Below are positions 5,545 to 54,008 of a stretch of DNA of 64,000 bases, piece by piece. Each line of letters starts with the position of its first letter. Position 1 is the stretch's first letter. The stretch lies in NCBI RefSeq assembly GCF_022012415.1, contig NZ_JAKLTR010000011.1, forward strand, positions 62,001 through 126,000, read 5' to 3'. Source of the DNA: Terrimonas ginsenosidimutans. GTDB lineage: Bacteria > Bacteroidota > Bacteroidia > Chitinophagales > Chitinophagaceae. A model generated the notes under the pieces. It worked only from the letters and a program-made list of their open reading frames with translations. It ran no database searches and was not told where the DNA came from. The position numbers and the translations under genes are program-made.

Positions 5545-8500
5545 TTAATTCTTTTTACTGATCGCTTTGGCGATCGCTTCCAGATGTTCATTAAAGGAGC
5601 TTAGTTGTATCAGCATCTGTCCGGATGTATCATTTTCCTTCATCATGCCGAACTTGTTATTCTTCATAAAGATCTCTTTGATCTGTTGCCAGCGGGCCGC
5701 TTCCGCTTCGTTCATAAATCCTGCAATTTCTTTTAAGCGCAACAGATTTGCTTCGGCATCGGATGTAAGCGTTTGTGATTCTCCCTCGTAATGTGAAAGG
5801 ATCAATGTATTCACCTCTTCCGGGTTCATCAACGGCACTATCTTCCCGGTCATCTTATTCATGTTACGATAGGATCCCTGAAGTTTAAATGCAGGCTCCG
5901 TTCGATATGCATCTTTCATCGCTGCACTCGCTATGTATTGCTGATTGACGAGGATCACAATATTTCTGATTCGGATCACATTCTTTAGAACGGCGATAGC
6001 ATCATCTGTTTCCTGCCGGTTGTAATTTCCTTCCAATTCAGGCAAAAGTTCACTTTCTGTTTCGATATAGTTGATCAGCTTATAAAGATCTTCAAAGCTT
6101 CGGTTGCTGATGCGTTGCAGATACCTGTTTTCTGCGACCGAGTTTTCTATCAGGCTAAGTTTGAACAGAAGATCAGATCCGCCGATCACATCACCCAGGT
6201 TATACACGTCGGCACGGTTTGCCAGCATGTCCGGGATCTTGAACTGTTCGCCGCTTTCTGTGTACGGGTTACCGGCCATTACAATACAGAAGCGTTTTCC
6301 GCGAAGATCATAGGTGCGGCTTTCGCCTTCGAAAATGCCGTCCATTTTACGCTGACCATCTGCCAGGGAAATGAATTTTTGAAGGAACTCCGGACTGCAA
6401 TGCTGGATATCATCGACGTATAACATCACGTTATCAGCCATTTCAAAGGACAGGTTGATCTTTTTCAATTCTTCACGCGCCCCGGAAGTGGTAGCTTCCT
6501 GCGGATCGATGGAAGTGATATGATGACCGATCGTGGGACCATTGATCTTCACAAAATGCAATCCCATCGTTTTGGCAAGATATTCCATCAGTGTTGTTTT
6601 GCCGTATCCAGGAGGAGATACGAGTAACAGCATACCCATTCTGGCTGTACGCTTATCGTCGCCTGCCGCACCGATCTGCTTTGCCAGGTTCGCCCCGATC
6701 AACGGGAAGTATACCTCATTGATCAGCCTGTTGCGCACAAATGAACTGAGCACCTTTGGTTCAAACTCAGTTATTTTTAACTGTTGACGATAGTCCTTTA
6801 CTAACTGTTCTTTTAGCTGATTGAAAGACGTAAAAGCCGGAACGACGGTTTCAACATATGTTTGCAGTCTTTTGATGAACTGATGATAACTTAGTTTATA
6901 TCTTCCTTCAGCTTCAATTACTGAATGCGTTCCTTTTAAACCCTCGAGAACCAGTGTGTCCGATGCCGCTCTTTCTTTGTATGGGTGATCTTTGAATAGC
7001 AGCAGGCAAACCGTTTCATCCACATATTGTGCGTCAAATTCTTCTGTGTGCATTTGCGAATAAGCGATCACCCAGCTTTGAATGATATAAAAACGTTCTG
7101 TTACATCAAACCCCGTATTGTTTACTTCCTGTTGAAAAAGATCTGTTCTTTTTTTGACTTGCAGATATTCCCTGAATGATTTTTTTAGTTGCATCGCCTG
7201 CTGGCTGCACGTGAAATGTTTCGATACAGAAAATTCGCTGTATAGATAGTGAGCAACATCTTCTGCATCTACTGTTTCGTATGCGAGTGATGACTGTAAA
7301 AATTTTGATGATAGTTCTTTCTCCACAAATGCCGCGCGACGGCTTTGTGGGAAGCTTTCCTGTATTGAATAGGCGGCTGTGATCAGTTGCTGTAGCTTAT
7401 TGCGGGAGGCTTCATCCAGTCCGAACCAGAATAGTTGCGCTGCCACCCGAACTGCCGGCGAATACTGAAGGATGCCGAGCTCTTCCTGCAGCTTTTTCAA
7501 ACCCTGGTAAATAACTGTTGCATCAACATTATGAACTCCTTTTAGATACGCGGCTGCGTAATCCCGCTCTGTACGGTCATTCAGAAATGTCTCAAAACTC
7601 CATTGCTCAGCCTGGTGCAGGCTTTCAAGGAAGGTTTGATAAGCGAGATATTCTGACCGGTATACGGTGCTGTTCTCCGAGATCAATTCCTGTTCCCAGA
7701 TCGTACGATGTGCGTAAAGCGACTCCGCAGTAACTTCCTTATAAAAACTGGTTCCGATCAGGTGATAAAAAAGACGGTCGTTTCTGCGCACGATCGTAAG
7801 ATCCAGCACCTGTTTGTTTACAATAAACTTGTAAGTGCCAAGCGAAATGATATTCTGGCCATCAACGAACAGGTCAGATTTGTCTTTCAGGTTTCTTAAT
7901 GCGGTTTCCTGGGCAACCTTAGTAAGGTTTTCCAGATTCTCTGCTTTTGCAACATCTCCGAGCTCTTTTAACTCATCAACAAGATTCCGAACCTTGTCGA
8001 TCATCAGATCCGTAGAAAAGAAAGCGTAAATGCTTTCCTTGTCGTTGAAGGACTGTGCCTTGTTTTCGATATTCTTCAGCACGCGCATGCCGATCTGCTC
8101 AAGAGCCGTTGTTCGCTTGTTGATCTGCGTGACCAGCATCTCCTTTTTGCCGTTGAACGCTTTGATGATCTCGTCGCGCTTGTCTGCAATTTTTATAACG
8201 AATTCTTCAAAATCGGCAAACTTGCTCTCGAGTTCTTCGACCTGTATACTGATCTTGGTGAAATAGTCTTCACATTTTTCAGGGGTATTGGAAAGGTCCA
8301 GGAAATTCACGATGCTTTGATCGAGCAATGTTAACTGTGCGTGGAACTCACCGGTTGATTCCTGCGTGCGTAATGCGGTTGTGGTGCGTACGAGTTCTGC
8401 TTTTACTTCATTCAGAGATGCGAAAATGAGCGAGATCTTCTCAACGATCCTTGTGGTTTGCGTTGTGTCTTCAATTTTGAGACTGTTAAGAATGTCGATC

Positions 8501-10389
8501 AGCATCTCGAGGCCGGCTGCAATTCCTTTTACCGCTTCCTCAACCGGCTGCGCGTCTATGACTTTTTTTACACCGGCTGCTATTATTTTTTGCTCCGCAA
8601 CCTTCGCTTCGTATGGGGCGAGTGCTTCTTCTTTCAGGAGGAACTGAATCGTATCCTGAGATAGAGACCCGTTATACTGCTGAAGTGTTTCTTTCAGCTT
8701 ATTTACTTCTTCCGTGTTGATGTACCGAACGTTCTGAAGATCTATGAGTGCGCCCTGCATGCTTCTCGTAGCGGCGAGAAGTTCCACCAGTTGATCCAGC
8801 GAAGTGATGGTCGCATTCTTAACATCAACAACCAGCTGATTAACCCTTTTTTGCATTGCATGCAGTGAGTCTTTTGCATGCTGGCGCTGTGCCTGGACTT
8901 TAGCGAACTCATCTATAGCGGTGTTCGCAATATCCCTTATCTGTGCTAAAGGCTGTGCTAAATTGAACGTAGCATCATCCTTTAACCAGAAATAGGAATC
9001 TATAATATCATTTGTTCTTTTATTGATGTCTTCATAAAGATCCTCATAGCTGTCTTCTTTTTGCAAAAGCTGTATCACTTCCTGGCTTTCACTCATTGCG
9101 CTGACAATATCTTTATTACCGATCTTATACAGCACATTACTGCTCATCGCTGTATTTTCTTTCAGCGTTGCTGTATAAGGCGTTTGCCAGATCTGTACCT
9201 GGTGATGCCTGACGGCTTCGTTCTCTGAGCGGAAATAGATCAACGTGCCATCGTCAAACACGGTGAATCCATTACAAATGATCGGTGTTTCTACCTGTTG
9301 AATGATCATGTTGTACGACATCAGGACGTATGTATTGGACGTTCTCTGGTAGAAGATATACAGGAAGTCTTCACCATTTGGAGATGCAATGCTGCGGATA
9401 AATTCCAGTTCTGTAATTGAAGATTCAAAGATCTTGTATTCACCATTCTGGAGATAGTAACCGTTTGGAAAGATCACGCCCTGGTTATCGGGCAATAAAA
9501 TTGCGGCGTCAAGCAGGCTGGAGATAGGTACAACCTGTTTGGTGCGGACATTATATATATATGCACGGAAATCTTCCTGGTAAGGTTTGATCTTGATGGG
9601 GATCAGGTTGCCAAGATCTGCATAGTAATATTCAGCGTCGTCGAGTTGCTGATCCCTGTTCAATACAGGTTCAGCGTAAATGCCTTTACCTGAATCGGTA
9701 TTATTTTCGATCTTGAAAGTGATATCACCGTTAACGGCTTCGATAAAAACTTTATCAAGGATAGAAATATGCGGGTACAAGCCGAGGCGGCGGTTGCTGA
9801 GATCGGTTTTCAGCCACTCAAAATCGTGCTGCGAAGCTTTTCTTACCTCATGAATACTTCGGTCATCTACGTATACCAGCTGGCTTCCTTTGATCAGCCA
9901 TTTAAAAGCCTTGCGGTCATCCGGGCTTTTGCTGGTCTGAAAGATCATGTAGAGGTAGTTCTCCGTTTTGGTGAACTTGGCAAATATCGAATCCCGGTAG
10001 TATTTATAGAGATTGCTGAAATCTGTGATGAAATTCTGGTCCTCTATTAATGTCAGTGGTTGAGGTTCGAAATGATCTCCGGTAAATTTGTAAATGCTGA
10101 ATACATCGCTAAGCTTGATATCTTCCCTCAAACCGAAATGAACATTATAGGCAAAGATGGTCAGATCGCCAAAGGCCATGATGCCCCGGGCCACGCCATT
10201 ATTGTTAGTGGTGATACGCTGGTTGGCGACGAGTTGAAAGCCTGAAGAGTTGAAGATCTCTTTGCGGGCGGTATTCAGTTTAGCCAGGCGTTGCGCCAGA
10301 AGGAGCCGTTGTTCTTCAAGACGGTTTCGGATGATCTCGTATGTGCCGGAGTCGAGTACGGCGGATGTGTTGTTGTCAGTACCTGCCAT
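5545..10389 (-). CDS. Giant coiled-coil AAA+ ATPase ('DNA repair ATPase' family), last gene of PspA/flotillin operon
   Basis: The protein has 1614 residues. Residues 1-450 form the N-terminal domain shared by proteins usually named DNA repair ATPase. Roughly 480-830 is long coiled coil (QRQHAKDSLHAMQKRVNQL and similar), then a mixed helical region. The ATPase core sits near the C terminus: Walker A SPPGYGKTT near residue 1260, Walker B MLYVDDIQH near 1325, and sensor 1 MAGNPY near 1371. The core resembles the MoxR/AAA_5 lineage. Walker B ends in Asp-Asp where Asp-Glu is usual, so ATP hydrolysis may be slow or altered. No signal or membrane segment is present. Gene order (PspA, OB-fold membrane protein, flotillin, then this) argues for membrane remodelling rather than DNA repair; that role is inference. 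Confidence 0.9.
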   Translation of the reverse strand: MAGTDNNTSAVLDSGTYEIIRNRLEEQRLLLAQRLAKLNTARKEIFNSSGFQLVANQRITTNNNGVARGIMAFGDLTIFAYNVHFGLREDIKLSDVFSIYKFTGDHFEPQPLTLIEDQNFITDFSNLYKYYRDSIFAKFTKTENYLYMIFQTSKSPDDRKAFKWLIKGSQLVYVDDRSIHEVRKASQHDFEWLKTDLSNRRLGLYPHISILDKVFIEAVNGDITFKIENNTDSGKGIYAEPVLNRDQQLDDAEYYYADLGNLIPIKIKPYQEDFRAYIYNVRTKQVVPISSLLDAAILLPDNQGVIFPNGYYLQNGEYKIFESSITELEFIRSIASPNGEDFLYIFYQRTSNTYVLMSYNMIIQQVETPIICNGFTVFDDGTLIYFRSENEAVRHHQVQIWQTPYTATLKENTAMSSNVLYKIGNKDIVSAMSESQEVIQLLQKEDSYEDLYEDINKRTNDIIDSYFWLKDDATFNLAQPLAQIRDIANTAIDEFAKVQAQRQHAKDSLHAMQKRVNQLVVDVKNATITSLDQLVELLAATRSMQGALIDLQNVRYINTEEVNKLKETLQQYNGSLSQDTIQFLLKEEALAPYEAKVAEQKIIAAGVKKVIDAQPVEEAVKGIAAGLEMLIDILNSLKIEDTTQTTRIVEKISLIFASLNEVKAELVRTTTALRTQESTGEFHAQLTLLDQSIVNFLDLSNTPEKCEDYFTKISIQVEELESKFADFEEFVIKIADKRDEIIKAFNGKKEMLVTQINKRTTALEQIGMRVLKNIENKAQSFNDKESIYAFFSTDLMIDKVRNLVDELKELGDVAKAENLENLTKVAQETALRNLKDKSDLFVDGQNIISLGTYKFIVNKQVLDLTIVRRNDRLFYHLIGTSFYKEVTAESLYAHRTIWEQELISENSTVYRSEYLAYQTFLESLHQAEQWSFETFLNDRTERDYAAAYLKGVHNVDATVIYQGLKKLQEELGILQYSPAVRVAAQLFWFGLDEASRNKLQQLITAAYSIQESFPQSRRAAFVEKELSSKFLQSSLAYETVDAEDVAHYLYSEFSVSKHFTCSQQAMQLKKSFREYLQVKKRTDLFQQEVNNTGFDVTERFYIIQSWVIAYSQMHTEEFDAQYVDETVCLLLFKDHPYKERAASDTLVLEGLKGTHSVIEAEGRYKLSYHQFIKRLQTYVETVVPAFTSFNQLKEQLVKDYRQQLKITEFEPKVLSSFVRNRLINEVYFPLIGANLAKQIGAAGDDKRTARMGMLLLVSPPGYGKTTLMEYLAKTMGLHFVKINGPTIGHHITSIDPQEATTSGAREELKKINLSFEMADNVMLYVDDIQHCSPEFLQKFISLADGQRKMDGIFEGESRTYDLRGKRFCIVMAGNPYTESGEQFKIPDMLANRADVYNLGDVIGGSDLLFKLSLIENSVAENRYLQRISNRSFEDLYKLINYIETESELLPELEGNYNRQETDDAIAVLKNVIRIRNIVILVNQQYIASAAMKDAYRTEPAFKLQGSYRNMNKMTGKIVPLMNPEEVNTLILSHYEGESQTLTSDAEANLLRLKEIAGFMNEAEAARWQQIKEIFMKNNKFGMMKENDTSGQMLIQLSSFNEHLEAIAKAISKKN

Positions 10390-10454
10390 GTTAGTAGAAT
10401 AGTCGTTTCAATGGAAGTCTAAAATAGTGCCATGTACGTATTGCCGACGGCGCT

Positions 10455-10520
10455 GGGAGCCGCAAAGGCCGCAAAGATCTCTTTGCGGTCCTTGCGCTTC
10501 CTTTGCGTTCTCAGCGATAC
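10455..10520. repeat. CTTTGCGG-type repeat with a palindrome
   Basis: In the 164-bp gap between the flotillin and AAA+ genes lies a run of related words (CGCAAAG, TTTGCGG, CCTTGCG, CTTTGCG). It includes the 20-bp palindrome CCGCAAAGATCTCTTTGCGG at 10469-10488. Such words are a familiar dispersed intergenic repeat in Cytophaga/Chitinophaga-type genomes. Inside an operon it could modulate expression of the ATPase relative to the flotillin. Confidence 0.6.
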
Positions 10521-10553
10521 TCAAACGCGGATGCCGGTAGTGGCATAAAACAA

Positions 10554-12581
10554 TTACAGTTTCTTATTAGAGATCCCCAGGCTGCTTGCCAGGTTCGCCA
10601 GGTTCAGCAATGAAGAGCGGTCGCCTTCAGAGCTTTGCTGCTGCATTTTCAGGATAAGGCTTGAAATGGTCAGGTTCTTGATGTCATTCGTTGAGATATT
10701 ATACTTGTCTGCGAATCCGCGTATACGTTCCATCAGATCGCCACTGTTTGAGCCATCGCCGATCAACGCTGTTTTGATCTGTGTAGCGTTTTCACTCTCG
10801 TTGATCAAACGGTCAAAGCCTTTTGCATTGGAGATCTGGTTTACGATATTCTGGAAGAACATCGTTTCACCACCAACGATATCAATTCTTGCAGATTTCA
10901 ACGCATCACCCAATACCATTGCCTGAGCGTCTGCGATATCTTTCTGGATATTGATCTGTGCAAGTGCGATATCTTTTTCTTTTGCAAGAAGCAGTTTGAA
11001 CTCTTCGTGATCTTTACCAACTGCGTCAAGCTTCTTCATTGCCTCGGCTTTCTCTTCGATGCCGGCAGCTTCTGCCATCGCTTTCTCTTTGGTTACCTCG
11101 GCCTGTGTCAAACCTTCTTTTCGTTTTGCTTCTGCCATTTTCTCCACGACGTTCGCCTCAACGATTCCCTGTCTTTCCGTAGCGTCGGCTTTTGCCATCA
11201 TTACTTCAGCTTCAGACAGACCCAATGTAGCGTCTTCACGCGCCTGTGCTTCAGCAAGTATCTTGCGGGCTTCGGCTTGTTTGACCGCAGCTTCTTTTTT
11301 CGCTTCAGCGTCGATGATCAATTGTTTTGCCTTTTCTTCAGCAGCTTTCTTTTCCGCTTCAGCCTGTTTAACAGTGAAGATCAATTTCTCTTCTGCCTGC
11401 TGACTGGCCTGCGTAATACCAACTGTTTTCTTACGTTCCACGTCACGGAAGGCTTCGAGATCTTTCATTCCCTGCTGCTCTTCTACCACGCCTTTTTCCA
11501 AACGAACGCGATCGCGGATCACATCCTGGATATTCTTACGTTCAACCTCCAGTGTTTTTTCTTTTTCGATCTGGGCAAGTGTTACGATCTTTTCACGCTC
11601 TGTCGCTTCCAATGCGCGGTCTTTTTCCACGCGTTCCGTTTCTACAGCATTTGTACGCTGTTTGTTCTTTTCTGCGATAATGATCTGACGGAGCTTATTT
11701 TCTTCCTGAACGGCCAGTGATTCATCTGTTTTAATGCGGACAGTTTCTGCCTTCAACCTTTCTTCTTCACGAACCTTGATGATCTCAGCGTGTTCACGTG
11801 CTTTGATATTATCGATCTCGCGGCGTTGTTTTTCTTCCTTCTCTGCCATCTGACGATCCAGTTCGAGAATGGCTTCGCGCGCTTCAACGTTTTGTTTCTT
11901 GATCACTTTCTCTTCTTCACGTTTGATGAGGTTTGCCTTTACATTCTGCTCTGCGGTAAGCTCTGTGATCTTTTTGATCCCCTGGGAATCAAGGATATTT
12001 TGTGCACTGAGCCACTTGATCTCTGTTTGTTCAAGATAATCAATCGCGCAGTCATCAAGAATGTAACCGTTCAGATCGGTTCCGATGATATCAAGGATCT
12101 CTGTTCTGAATTCGCGACGAGCTTCATACAGTTCGATAAAATCAAATTTCTTACCAACTGTTTTTAATGCTTCCGAGAACTTGGCTTCAAAGAGGTTACG
12201 GAGTGTATCCACATCACTGGCTCTTTCTGTGCCAATGATCTGGGCAACGTTCAATACGTCGTCAACGTTTTTGTTTACACGTACGAAAAATGCCACTTTG
12301 ATATCAGCACGGATATTGTCTTTACAGATCAAGCCGTCACCTTCGAGGCGGTCGATCTGTAGTTTTTTTACAGAGATATCCATGATCTCCATTTTATGGA
12401 GGATCGGGATCACGTACATACCTTTATTGAAGGCTACTTTACCACCTCCAACACCAGTACGGACGATCGCTTTGCCCTGTGGAATTTTCTTGTAAAAAGT
12501 GGCAAAAGCAAAGAGGATAATAAAAATGAGAAATGCGATTCCCCCGATAAGCAGTAAGCTGATTCCGCCAAATGCTCCCAT
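10554..12581 (-). CDS. Flotillin-like SPFH protein (YqiK type)
   Basis: The protein has 675 residues. The N terminus is one membrane anchor (LLLIGGIAFLIFIILFAFATF, given here in part). The SPFH/band-7 domain follows to about residue 200 (GKAIVRTGVGGGKVAF, RADIKVAFFVRVN, LSAQNILDSQG). Then comes a very long Glu/Ala/Lys coiled coil (residues about 210-560) and a small C-terminal domain ending in LANLASSLGISNKKL. The length and layout match flotillins of the YqiK/YuaG group, which scaffold ordered membrane patches. The NfeD-like gene lies 67 bp upstream, the standard pairing for this family (YqiJ-YqiK, YuaF-FloT). The coiled coil yields long open frames on the opposite strand that should not be read as genes. 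Confidence 0.93.
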   Translation of the reverse strand: MGAFGGISLLLIGGIAFLIFIILFAFATFYKKIPQGKAIVRTGVGGGKVAFNKGMYVIPILHKMEIMDISVKKLQIDRLEGDGLICKDNIRADIKVAFFVRVNKNVDDVLNVAQIIGTERASDVDTLRNLFEAKFSEALKTVGKKFDFIELYEARREFRTEILDIIGTDLNGYILDDCAIDYLEQTEIKWLSAQNILDSQGIKKITELTAEQNVKANLIKREEEKVIKKQNVEAREAILELDRQMAEKEEKQRREIDNIKAREHAEIIKVREEERLKAETVRIKTDESLAVQEENKLRQIIIAEKNKQRTNAVETERVEKDRALEATEREKIVTLAQIEKEKTLEVERKNIQDVIRDRVRLEKGVVEEQQGMKDLEAFRDVERKKTVGITQASQQAEEKLIFTVKQAEAEKKAAEEKAKQLIIDAEAKKEAAVKQAEARKILAEAQAREDATLGLSEAEVMMAKADATERQGIVEANVVEKMAEAKRKEGLTQAEVTKEKAMAEAAGIEEKAEAMKKLDAVGKDHEEFKLLLAKEKDIALAQINIQKDIADAQAMVLGDALKSARIDIVGGETMFFQNIVNQISNAKGFDRLINESENATQIKTALIGDGSNSGDLMERIRGFADKYNISTNDIKNLTISSLILKMQQQSSEGDRSSLLNLANLASSLGISNKKL

Positions 12582-12648
12582 AGTAGTGTGTTTGTTTTAG
12601 GTTGAGTGAATAAGGACTTGTTATAGATATTAAGGTTGTCGAACTTTG

Positions 12649-13335
12649 TCAGACGATATTTTGCAGGTTGATCTCGCGCACAACCAGGTAAAATTTCTTA
12701 TCAGCTGATTCGTCGGCGATCATTACCTCAGCGTCATAGGGGATAGGTTCGCCGGTTTTACTTTTCACATTGATCCGCAGGATATCACTTTGAACTTTTA
12801 CTTCTGCTGCACCAATCGTATTGCCCGCAATGGTCGACTTCATTCTGGCGGTTCTTCCCAGCAGTTCCTGTGCTTCTTCCCCATTATAGCCCATAGCGTG
12901 GTATACTTTTATAAGTGGTTTCGTAGCGTATCTCGTGATCACAAATGCGACAAAGAAAACGGGGATCAGAATGAAGACTGATTTCCAGCCCCAGTTTGCC
13001 AGACCAAATGCGATCGAAGAGGTTAGTGTTACGATCCATGCGATGAACTTAAAGGTAGAATATACTACCATAAATGGCACTTTACCTATATTAACAAATT
13101 CGAGTGCTTTCTGGTAAAAGGGCTTATCGCCTGGAGAATCACCTCCCTCTACATCTGCATCGGTGTCTGTATCCACGTCCGCTCCGTGGGCATCAAGGTC
13201 GGCATCAACCTCCGCATCGCCAAACAAATCTCCGGCAATGAACGTAAAAATCCAGTAGATGGCGGTAATTCCGGTAAGAACCGTCATTATCGCATTACTA
13301 AGCGGGTGAAATAACAGATCAGTGATACTAAGCAT
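12649..13335 (-). CDS. NfeD/YqiJ-like membrane protein with OB-fold domain
   Basis: The protein has 228 residues. Three hydrophobic segments are seen: one near residues 12-35 (MTVLTGITAIYWIFTFIAGDL), and two between about 95 and 140 (SSIAFGLANWGW, FILIPVFFVAFVITRYA). An acidic loop full of Asp (DAEVDADLDAHGADVDTDTD) separates the first from the rest. The C-terminal 65 residues are a small beta-rich OB-like domain (LLGRTARMKSTIAG to FYLVVREI). This architecture matches the NfeD/YuaF/YqiJ partners of flotillins, where the OB domain is cytoplasmic. The gene lies between pspA and the flotillin in one operon. The Asp-rich loop is unusual and could bind divalent cations; that is speculation. Confidence 0.88.
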   Translation of the reverse strand: MLSITDLLFHPLSNAIMTVLTGITAIYWIFTFIAGDLFGDAEVDADLDAHGADVDTDTDADVEGGDSPGDKPFYQKALEFVNIGKVPFMVVYSTFKFIAWIVTLTSSIAFGLANWGWKSVFILIPVFFVAFVITRYATKPLIKVYHAMGYNGEEAQELLGRTARMKSTIAGNTIGAAEVKVQSDILRINVKSKTGEPIPYDAEVMIADESADKKFYLVVREINLQNIV

Positions 13336-13395
13336 AGTTGGAACTAATAAGGTTTATCGGAATTAACGATATAGAGGTATTATTGCCTTATCGTT

Positions 13396-13436
13396 CTCAT
13401 TACCTCACAAATTTTATTTGCTGTTGAGGTAATGAG
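13396..13436 (-). other. Intra-operon hairpin between pspA and the NfeD-like gene
   Basis: CTCATTACCTCA and TGAGGTAATGAG form a perfect 12-bp stem with a 17-nt loop. It lies just after the pspA stop in the direction of transcription and has no T run. It may be a processing or stabilising element that sets the PspA level apart from the downstream membrane proteins. Confidence 0.5.
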
Positions 13437-13453
13437 ACGGTAGGAATTGCGAT

Positions 13454-14179
13454 CTAATGATTGTTGCCTTCCGTATTATCCTGGATTCCCAGTTTTTCTT
13501 TGATTGCTTTCAGATCTTTTTCGATAGACAATGAATCATCTTTCAAAAGAGAATTAAGTTCATCTTTCAGACTGTTCTTGTCACGAGCGATCTCGCCATA
13601 CGCTTTTGATAAAGCTTCCTGGTCTTCCACTTTCGCTTTCATACGTTCCAGCATGGCGATGGTTCCGTTATTATCGAGTTGAGCCAGTTGCTTATTTACC
13701 TGCTCTGTCGCTTTGCTGACTTTTACGCGTGCTTTCAATGTTCTGAGTTCCTTCTCCCATTTCTCCATGTTGGATTTCAGGATCTCTGTATTGCGCAGCA
13801 TTTCTTTGGATGATTGCTGCAGTGCTACCACCTGGCCTCCGAGTTCTTCCGCCTCTGCGAAATACTTACGGCGGAGTGAAAGCGCTTCACGGGCCAGATC
13901 CTCGGCTTTTACCAGATCAACCTGTCCCGACTGTGCTTTTTGCATGATCAAGATAGCTTTTTCTGCATAATTCATCGACTCCTGCTGACAGTGAGCCTGG
14001 TCATTTTCTGTACGGATAGCGAGGGCTTTTACTTTTGCATAAGCTTCGGTTGCTTCCGTCAGGTCGTTCCTTAGTTCACGAAGGCCCTGTTCGGTCATTT
14101 TTACAGGATCTTCCATTTTATCCACGGCGGCATGTATTTCTGCCTGTCCAATTCTGAAGAGACGTTTGAAAATGTTCAT
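13454..14179 (-). CDS. pspA: PspA/IM30 (Vipp1, ESCRT-III-like) membrane-stress protein
   Basis: The protein has 241 residues and is almost entirely helical coiled coil. It opens with the short amphipathic helix MNIFKRLFRIGQAEIHAAVDKMEDPVKM (described here in part) that is typical of PspA/Vipp1. The family signature continues with LRELRNDLTEA and paired helices up to about residue 190. Proteins of this family are bacterial relatives of eukaryotic ESCRT-III. They assemble on damaged or stressed inner membrane. The gene is second in the operon, 42 bp after the YbjN-like gene. Its E. coli counterpart by context is YjfJ (next to YjfI) rather than the pspABC regulon member. The assignment is firm; the stress that triggers it here is unknown. 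Confidence 0.93.
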   Translation of the reverse strand: MNIFKRLFRIGQAEIHAAVDKMEDPVKMTEQGLRELRNDLTEATEAYAKVKALAIRTENDQAHCQQESMNYAEKAILIMQKAQSGQVDLVKAEDLAREALSLRRKYFAEAEELGGQVVALQQSSKEMLRNTEILKSNMEKWEKELRTLKARVKVSKATEQVNKQLAQLDNNGTIAMLERMKAKVEDQEALSKAYGEIARDKNSLKDELNSLLKDDSLSIEKDLKAIKEKLGIQDNTEGNNH

Positions 14180-14221
14180 GACGAATAAGTTTTATAGTTT
14201 TAAAATGACTTTCTATTATAG

Positions 14222-14614
14222 TTACAGTTTTGAAAAATCGATGATCTGCCGGGAAAACTCACTTAACAGGAGACCGAGGGAGTTCAGCGCTCCTTCCAAC
14301 TCATTGAAGTCGATGTTCTCCAACTGCATGGTGTAGCGGAACAAGACCTTATCGCCTTCTTCATTTATCACAAATGCGCCGTGGATCGTATCACGGTTCT
14401 TTTGCAGTAATTTTTTGAACATATCCATATTGTCCTCCCGGAAGGAAAACAGGTATTGTTCCATGATCAGGATAGGGGGAGCGATGCCAATAATGAGATT
14501 ATGGATCCCATCAGGTTGATTGTCGATCTTCAAAATCCCGTTCAATTCGTTCTTGTACACGATCCGGCAATTGAGTTTGAGGGCGAAATCTTCAATGGTA
14601 TCAATATAATTCAT
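14222..14614 (-). CDS. YbjN/CesT-like small protein, first gene of the PspA operon
   Basis: The protein has 130 residues. The ATG complementary to 14612-14614 (MNYIDTIEDF) is chosen because the longer frame to 14641 would overlap the -7 promoter element at 14639-14646. The protein shows an alpha-beta pattern like type-III-secretion-chaperone/YbjN folds: an N-terminal helix, four strands around PPILIMEQYLFSF and GAFVINEEGDKVLFRYTM, and a C-terminal helix. Related proteins next to pspA are annotated DUF2170 (E. coli YjfI) or 'molecular chaperone Tir'. It is cytosolic, and as the operon's lead gene it may be an adaptor or regulator of PspA. That role is inference. Confidence 0.75.
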   Translation of the reverse strand: MNYIDTIEDFALKLNCRIVYKNELNGILKIDNQPDGIHNLIIGIAPPILIMEQYLFSFREDNMDMFKKLLQKNRDTIHGAFVINEEGDKVLFRYTMQLENIDFNELEGALNSLGLLLSEFSRQIIDFSKL

Positions 14615-14638
14615 GGGCGTTGGTTTAAGCTGACTTAA

Positions 14639-14669
14639 CAAATCTACAACGTTTTATCATAAATGCAAA
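14639..14669 (-). promoter_or_regulatory. Promoter of the PspA/flotillin/AAA operon
   Basis: On the minus strand, TTTG (14669-14666) is followed after exactly 19 bp by TAGATTTG (14646-14639). This is a perfect match to the Bacteroidota housekeeping promoter TTTG-N19-TAnnTTTG. The predicted RNA start, near 14634, leaves about 20 nt of leader before the ATG at 14614. Confidence 0.85.
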
Positions 14670-14680
14670 AAATATTGGCA

Positions 14681-14711
14681 TTTGTGTTAAAAGAAATTAC
14701 AACTATCTTTG
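14681..14711 (+). promoter_or_regulatory. Promoter of the XRE regulator gene
   Basis: TTTG (14681-14684), 19 bp, then TATCTTTG (14704-14711) is again a perfect match. The two divergent -33 boxes lie only 11 bp apart, so one bound repressor could shut both. The regulator's ATG begins 6 bp after the -7 box, so its mRNA is probably leaderless. Confidence 0.85.
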
Positions 14712-14716
14712 CAGCC

Positions 14717-15394
14717 ATGACCAAGATCGGGGCAAATATCAAAAAAATCAGGACTACAAAGGGGTTGAGTCAACAAGCCTTTGCGGATCTGTTTACACTA
14801 ACCAGGGGTAATATCTCTTCTTATGAGGAAAGCAGGGCAGAACCAAGGATCGAGACTGTTGTGCAGATTGCCAATTATTTTTGCATACCCCTTGGCCAAT
14901 TTGTTACGCAGAACCTCACGATCAACGAGATCCTGAAGTTTAATGGCGACAAGCTCATCGAGGACGAGAACCATATTATCAAGCTGCAGCTGCATGAAGT
15001 GCCATTCATAAATGATAATATATATATGAAGTGTTGTTACCGGGAATTGCAGTTCAACGACTGGGGGGCTTTTCCCCGGCTGGTGCTTCCGGAAGCGAAC
15101 AATCACAATATGATAGCGCTTACGTTCAATCCCAATATTGCGCACCATGAATCGCTGCCTGAATATCGAATGCACGATGTGCTGATCTTTGAAGAGGTGA
15201 CGGAGGAGAATATTCATCTGTGCCACCATAAGACCGGCCTGTATACCGTCGACCGCGAGATCATGTTAGGCCGTTTTGAAATGAAAGAAGACCGGATCGA
15301 TCTCGTCTTGAATGATTTTAAAAAGCAACAGTTCGATTTCAAACACCGGATGACATTCTGGAAATTGTTTGCGGTTTACCAGCACGTGCTTTGA
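14717..15394 (+). CDS. XRE-family regulator divergent from the PspA operon
   Basis: The protein has 225 residues. It starts at ATG 14717 (MTKIGANIKKIRTTKGLSQQ) because a longer frame would begin inside the promoter. Residues 3-60 are a classic XRE helix-turn-helix (LSQQAFADLFTLTRGNISSYEESRAEP, given in two parts: the recognition helix is around NISSYEE). The C-terminal 150 residues are strand-rich (MHDVLIFEEV, GRFEMKEDRIDLVLND) and recall S24/LexA-like sensor domains of phage-type repressors, but no Ser/Lys dyad was recognised. Its divergent, interleaved promoters make it the likely regulator of the PspA/flotillin/AAA operon and of itself. Confidence 0.88.
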   Translation: MTKIGANIKKIRTTKGLSQQAFADLFTLTRGNISSYEESRAEPRIETVVQIANYFCIPLGQFVTQNLTINEILKFNGDKLIEDENHIIKLQLHEVPFINDNIYMKCCYRELQFNDWGAFPRLVLPEANNHNMIALTFNPNIAHHESLPEYRMHDVLIFEEVTEENIHLCHHKTGLYTVDREIMLGRFEMKEDRIDLVLNDFKKQQFDFKHRMTFWKLFAVYQHVL

Positions 15395-53934: not shown

Positions 53935-54008
53935 TCCTCCTTAGCTCAGTTGGTTAGAGCATCTGACTGTTAATCAGAGGGTCGCTGGTTCAAGTCCAGC
54001 AGGGGGAG
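53935..54008 (+). tRNA. tRNA-Asn (GTT)
   Basis: The acceptor arm TCCTCCT pairs with AGGGGGA (one G-U pair), the D arm starts GCTC, the anticodon loop is CTGTTAA with anticodon GTT, and the T arm is GCTGG-TTCAAGT-CCAGC. The discriminator base is G and CCA is not encoded. The transcript has a terminator at 54020-54047. Its 3' end borders a gene-poor region, a common insertion site for mobile DNA. Confidence 0.97.

Follow-up and report, generated by a model that had tools for sequence, protein, structure and literature searches.

A DUF3686 AAA+ ATPase paired with a flotillin and an NfeD-like protein, and an optional PspA module beside a putative XRE switch, in Terrimonas ginsenosidimutans

We analyzed a stretch of 64,000 nucleotides from Terrimonas ginsenosidimutans (contig NZ_JAKLTR010000011.1, positions 62,001 to 126,000; the window), which carries an operon for a CesT/Tir-like protein, PspA, an NfeD-like protein, a flotillin and a AAA+ ATPase with a DUF3686 domain, next to a divergent XRE regulator. 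The flotillin and the ATPase form a near-obligate pair, also in genomes without any PspA match. We lean towards the interpretation that a flotillin-NfeD assembly carries the ATPase as its remodelling motor, and that in Bacteroidota a PspA module under XRE control is added to it. A more tentative proposal is that the ATPase, the flotillin and the NfeD-like protein constitute a further kind of SPFH-anchored, protease-free AAA+ machine, with a motor of the MoxR type seated on a cage of flotillin; PspA modules would have joined it at least twice, as an optional part. The genes of the locus are as follows.

5545..10389, minus strand: DUF3686 AAA+ ATPase, 1614 amino acids (open reading frame and Pfam)
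10554..12581, minus strand: flotillin-type SPFH protein, 675 amino acids, with an N-terminal hydrophobic segment, a Band_7 domain and a long, charged, repetitive part
12649..13335, minus strand: NfeD/YqiJ-like small membrane protein, 228 amino acids, with a weak YqiJ_N match and a conserved position among loci
13454..14179, minus strand: PspA/IM30 family protein (ESCRT-III relative), 241 amino acids (open reading frame and Pfam)
14222..14614, minus strand: CesT/Tir-like small protein (PF22550); open reading frame open to 14641, probable start ATG 14614
14717..15394, plus strand: divergent XRE regulator; open reading frame open to 14663, conserved start Met 19

The distribution of the genes carries the argument. 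The ATPase was found in 6 of 247 genomes of a phylum sample, 19 of 248 of a sample of the window's order and 3 of 59 relatives, the window's own genome being counted each time; the single genome of the same genus that was compared is without it. At a profile threshold of E ≤ 1e-40 the flotillin was present in 19 of the 248 order genomes, and 18 of these also have the ATPase (Fisher p = 3e-25, kinship ignored). Both exceptions to the pairing come from a single genus and from genomes that are incomplete. PspA exceeded its cut-off in 11 order genomes, of which 7 contain the ATPase, and thus accompanies 7 of the 19 ATPases. Sharing of 18/19 for the flotillin against 7/19 for PspA makes the flotillin a nearly obligatory partner of the ATPase, and PspA a coupled but optional one.

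A number of genomes have the ATPase and no PspA. Of 23 ATPase genomes besides the window's, 12 are without PspA over the cut-off and 9 without any PspA match, among these G407 (a single contig, 99% complete), G426 and G476 (both 100% complete). For 20 further genomes reached through named loci, which lack completeness figures, the corresponding numbers are 6 and 5, the five being Dysgonomonas capnocytophagoides, Chryseobacterium balustinum, C. aahli, Rhodopirellula baltica and Acidaminobacter sp. Snf7 as a substitute for PspA was found in none of 12 genomes, and no control genome reached the Snf7 cut-off either. In a FastTree phylogeny of the ATPase the two PspA-free Chryseobacterium rows are nested within a clade of PspA carriers, which makes a loss of PspA the most likely course there, with retention of XRE, NfeD, flotillin and ATPase. 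Among 342 conserved positions, 1 and 2 deviate in their ATPases, compared with 0–10 in six siblings that keep PspA. Since the PspA label takes five changes on this tree, we leave the gains and losses of PspA undecided. Species that lack PspA and keep the remaining operon are natural experiments that split the functions of flotillin from those of PspA.

Gene order leads to the same partner. We took neighbourhoods for 20 of the 24 other ATPase places from the phylum and order samples and for 80 of 533 relatives, chosen as the best by their similarity to the window, a ranking by which PspA-bearing Bacteroidota are over-represented; 3 of the 80 repeated earlier loci and were left out. The unique loci number 98 in all. 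Gene-order classes were counted where the sequence upstream of the ATPase reaches 7 kb or more; this applies to 78 loci, a sample biased towards the window's relatives. The full cassette, a divergent XRE gene followed by CesT/Tir-PspA-NfeD-flotillin-ATPase, occurs in 38 of them, more than expected by chance, and fixed linkage in many genomes, which an earlier, sequence-only reading of the window had put forward as a test, is borne out. NfeD-flotillin alone accompanies the ATPase in 31 loci, in one of which, L040, this pair lies on the opposite strand. The other classes are XRE with NfeD-flotillin (2), flotillin alone (2), PspA-NfeD-flotillin (1) and none of these (4). Wherever an XRE gene is present (40 loci) it lies on the opposite strand, and 38 of the 39 loci with PspA have it. 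Of the 84 loci with at least 2.5 kb, 79 have a same-strand flotillin upstream of the ATPase.

ATPase relatives in named genomes belong to Bacteroidota, Planctomycetota, Verrucomicrobiota, Kiritimatiellota, Thermodesulfobacteriota, Bacillota and Chlorobiota; a plasmid collection, some of whose records are chromosome-sized, adds Pseudomonadota, Deinococcota and Actinomycetota. In the phylum of G511 (Desulfobacterales) the ATPase was found in the seed genome only (1 of 148). All eight plasmid-collection loci opened (out of 12) have NfeD-flotillin-ATPase by profile. Two of them have PspA next to the core in different forms: a Hymenobacter plasmid carries the full cassette, its regulator being annotated as LexA family, in the CesT/Tir-PspA form with XRE switch that is seen in Bacteroidota, and pQBR103 has a polyamine-type YjfI-PspA block directly upstream of the NfeD-flotillin-ATPase triplet. 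The core triplet is carried on plasmids at L128, L130, L133 and L135 (Hymenobacter, pDEGR-1, pQBR103 and Streptomyces), and such carriage fits the patchy distribution of the ATPase.

The ATPase matches DUF3686 (E 7.1e-162) as well as DUF7902 and AAA in Pfam. A β-propeller (residues ~48–404) is followed by a long helical or coiled-coil middle part and a AAA+ domain near the C-terminus; in the structure model one helix precedes the propeller, and the match of the N-terminal half to a solved structure by sequence is to a coiled-coil protein. Residues 1258–1266 and 1326–1327 (Asp-Asp) we take to be the Walker A and B motifs, Asn1374 sensor 1, Arg1508 sensor 2 and Arg1392 the probable arginine finger. 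A GSYR motif is present in 97 of 97 ATPases, and the HExxH motif is missing in 93 of the 97. Among the fold matches listed for the AAA+ part, the MoxR-type proteins CbbQ/NorQ come first, followed by dynein and ClpA/B; the Foldseek TMt is 0.62 for CbbQ2 and 0.40–0.41 for spastin. The modelled fold is thus probably closest to the MoxR type, and nearer to it than to spastin. Vps4 was not among the 50 fold matches listed, an absence that excludes nothing. The Pfam scan gave no MIT domain in the ATPase at E ≤ 0.1, and no VWA domain, as carried by partners of MoxR ATPases, in the nine window proteins scanned, the rest of the genome lying outside this search.

The region between the CesT/Tir and XRE genes contains two putative regulatory elements.

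14664..14680, no strand: putative XRE operator, dyad TGCNAA-N5-TTNGCA
14639..14669, minus strand: putative Bacteroidota-type operon promoter, with TTTG at 14669-14666, a spacer of 19 nucleotides and TAGATTTG at 14646-14639; the first box lies within the operator

The 17-base-pair dyad is present in 31 of 40 XRE-side intergenic regions, compared with a mean of 0.06 and a maximum of 1 in shuffled regions. The motif was read by eye from 12 regions, all of them positive, which leaves 19 of 28 as the held-out figure. Of the 38 NfeD upstream regions from loci without XRE, none contains the motif; the rest of the 40 loci, 962,874 bases, has it 35 times. The promoter consensus of Bacteroidota is TTTG, 17–21 nucleotides, TAnnTTT. 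A match directed towards the operon was found in 29 of the 40 regions (4.12 in shuffles); it overlaps the dyad in 25 of 31 cases, in 23 at an identical offset. Because the TTTG box belongs to the dyad, only the TAnnTTT box at its fixed distance is independent evidence. In the C-terminal region of the XRE protein, 8 of 24 members match Peptidase_S24, and the window's own XRE does not. With 40 of 40 divergent genes and this putative operator, XRE looks like the dedicated switch of the operon that the sequence-only reading had taken it for, the simplest reading being that it represses by occupying the -33 box. As just one operator is predicted, a reporter could serve to screen for the stress that induces the operon.

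We propose that the core works as a three-gene machine of NfeD-like protein, flotillin and DUF3686 ATPase. At the inner membrane, flotillin and NfeD would assemble into an oligomeric clamp or cage, on which the ATPase may dock via its β-propeller and long coiled coils. Its MoxR-like AAA+ ring would then spend ATP on remodelling client proteins held by the clamp, or the cage itself. In Bacteroidota a module of CesT/Tir-like protein and PspA appears to have been put ahead of this core, behind one promoter, which XRE probably represses via the 17-base-pair dyad over the -33 box. A signal, for which the S24-like C-terminal region of XRE is a possible sensor, may release XRE, and PspA would then contribute ESCRT-III-like membrane support to the stress response, together with the flotillin-tied motor. 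The role of bacterial flotillins and their use of energy are unsettled, and an ATPase that tracks one flotillin subfamily at about 1:1 gives a direct handle on both.

SPFH assemblies with AAA+ machines are known from HflK/C-FtsH, where FtsH is a membrane metalloprotease, and from prohibitin and the m-AAA protease. HflK/C-FtsH (PMC13220708) resembles the window's system in combining SPFH proteins with a AAA+ machine and differs from it in the metalloprotease, given the missing HExxH motif. CbbQ and NorQ probably provide the closest solved fold for the AAA+ domain, but these chains have ~250–270 residues, unlike the 1614 residues of the ATPase with its propeller and coiled coil, and did not appear among the sequence matches listed. 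In Staphylococcus aureus, FloA-NfeD was described as a clamp that retains unfolded proteins independently of ATP (PMC11222466); flotillin and NfeD partner are shared with the window, and the available text describes no ATPase. Acidobacteriota have PspA operons with band-7/FloT proteins, an NfeD partner and HTH regulators (PMC9239133), the available text of which mentions neither a DUF3686 ATPase nor the window's XRE arrangement.

The closest precedent is an operon group in PMC11237479 (mSystems 2024), where CesT/Tir-PspA is accompanied by a "novel AAA+ ATPase" that has a β-propeller and a coiled coil, and by a flotillin and a YqiJ/YuaF protein. The five gene kinds recur in the window, although for the YqiJ/YuaF-type 3TM protein the YqiJ_N match is weak and below the cut-off. 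Three features of the group are seen: the CesT/Tir-PspA dyad, a protein with transmembrane segment, band-7 domain and coiled coil, and the β-propeller/coiled-coil ATPase. Abbreviated operons without PspA are also described there, as the more widely distributed form. The main text of that study contains no XRE, and its section on the group gives no operator and no count of PspA-free genomes. The gene list is therefore already published; the present analysis adds a ranking of the partners, a putative XRE operator with its promoter, and a fold that is probably MoxR-like. The sequence-only reading had called the system little-described, which no longer suits the operon. For the ATPase it still does, as we found no experimental work on it in the open-licence literature, and no mention of DUF3686 or PF12458 there.

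A number of observations weigh against a flotillin-bound, MoxR-like motor with PspA as an addition. Co-occurrence of flotillin and ATPase could reflect a common pathway rather than contact, and 5 of the 84 loci are without a same-strand upstream flotillin, one being the inverted L040 and two (L035, L041) belonging to genomes with a flotillin on another contig. It is the fold by itself that points to MoxR: a Ycf2-FtsHi chain takes first place when the matches are sorted by Foldseek E-value, the best solved sequence matches of the AAA+ profile, to p97/NVL-type AAA and to RuvB, cover a short stretch at the P-loop, no MoxR protein is among the 60 sequence matches to solved structures listed, and Pfam AAA outscores AAA_5 in the ATPase (35.0 against 29.3 bits). 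PspA and the ATPase are associated beyond chance in the order sample (Fisher p = 1.3e-6, kinship ignored). In the phylum sample the six genomes with PspA over the cut-off in the window's class are exactly the six ATPase genomes; PspA is thus no random passenger, and PspA of this class does not occur outside the system in that sample. A SPFH protein of Bacillus subtilis was reported to link PspA to the membrane (PMC8581546). Some Proteobacteria carry the PspA form according to PMC11237479, so that the label "Bacteroidota" describes the present sample. As to the switch, it is read from sequence, and 9 of the 40 loci lack the dyad as written.

The sequence-only reading had proposed that the ATPase is a Vps4 analogue that dissolves or remodels PspA polymers on flotillin patches. 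We regard this as unlikely as an explanation of the ATPase, even though the statistical coupling to PspA, the fixed cassette and the P-loop similarity to p97/NVL-type AAA speak for it. The different PspA block beside the same core on pQBR103 suggests repeated recruitment, and PMC11237479, which proposes ESCRT-like roles in general terms, likens PspA-ATPase pairs to ESCRT-III/Vps4. The system would share with Vps4 a AAA+ protein tied to an ESCRT-III relative. Yet Vps4-type ATPases have ESCRT-III as a constant partner, whereas here that place is taken by the flotillin: the ATPase persists with flotillin and NfeD where no PspA match exists, undiminished in constraint in the two Chryseobacterium species, and action on PspA does not explain it there. 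The ATPase has a β-propeller in place of MIT, and its nearest folds appear to be of the MoxR type. An LxxLKxxL tail of PspA was considered as a MIM-like docking motif for the ATPase and rejected: it is conserved after a variable linker in 39 of 39 operonic PspAs, but is also present in 37 of 43 PspAs away from the ATPase and hence not ATPase-specific (the operonic L157 was removed before counting; L179, also operonic, is among the 43). Where a cassette contains PspA, the ATPase may additionally act on it in a Vps4-like way.

That the ATPase opens, closes or dismantles the flotillin cage itself instead of acting on clients appears quite unlikely to us; a dedicated assembly factor would be expected to pair ~1:1 with one flotillin subfamily, as is seen, but such pairing is equally expected if the cage merely holds the ATPase. 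A phage-defence island is very improbable. The patchy distribution, carriage on some plasmids and the XRE repressor would suit it, but none of the five operon proteins scanned matched a PADLOC family at E ≤ 1e-5 (XRE was not scanned). Hardly credible is a DNA repair ATPase, the name used in Pfam and PLSDB records: RuvB is among the sequence and fold neighbours, but its sequence similarity is limited to the P-loop region and below curated cut-offs, and the constant neighbours of the gene are membrane-type proteins. Our findings argue for giving up this misleading label in favour of another.

In the window itself, the order and strands of the five genes and the divergent XRE gene had been read correctly from the sequence, and the open reading frames confirm their coordinates. 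The gene at 14222, which had been called YbjN-like, is present but better assigned to CesT_Tir_1 (PF22550, E 9.6e-48; YbjN E 0.0022, below the cut-off). PspA matches PF04012 (PspA_IM30) with E 5.5e-39 and 134.5 bits, the cut-off being 33.9, and XRE matches HTH_3 (E 9.7e-9). The sole Pfam match of the NfeD-like protein is the weak one to YqiJ_N (E 0.0023, below the cut-off). Band_7 was detected (E 1.8e-12) in the N-terminal 240 residues of the flotillin scanned alone; neither the full-length protein nor its C-terminal part gave a Pfam match, and no relative with a solved structure was found by sequence at E ≤ 0.001. Its transmembrane segment and coiled coil were assigned by eye. Met 19 of XRE (14717) is most likely the start, since at least 95% of the 40 relatives aligned with it have this Met. 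The start of the CesT/Tir-like protein is probably ATG 14614, since TTG 14641 falls inside the predicted promoter.

In phylum genomes without the ATPase (L136-L165, L157 left out), 23 of 29 loci have a CesT/Tir gene no more than 1.5 kb away from PspA, so this dyad also occurs without the core. The frame of the ATPase is broken into at least two open reading frames at L033, L054, L056 and L104, which are draft errors or decayed genes. An ATPase of 3321 residues at L086 was considered as a fusion and rejected, because the extra part is mostly a run of N. Genome G384 has several partial flotillin matches on one contig. Four loci contain a short SPFH-only paralogue of ~180 residues between NfeD and flotillin:

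L032, 12369-12920
L033, 4321-4863
L040, 11081-11632
L043, 2855-3409

The gap between the flotillin and ATPase genes in the window has an imperfect inverted repeat, noticed by eye:

10390..10553, minus strand: flotillin-ATPase gap, 164 nucleotides, with GCAAAGGAAGCGCAAGGACCGCAAAG ... CTTTGCGGCCTTTGCGG

The half that was searched occurs once in the window. A tRNA at 53935-54008 is the only Rfam match in the window at the gathering threshold.
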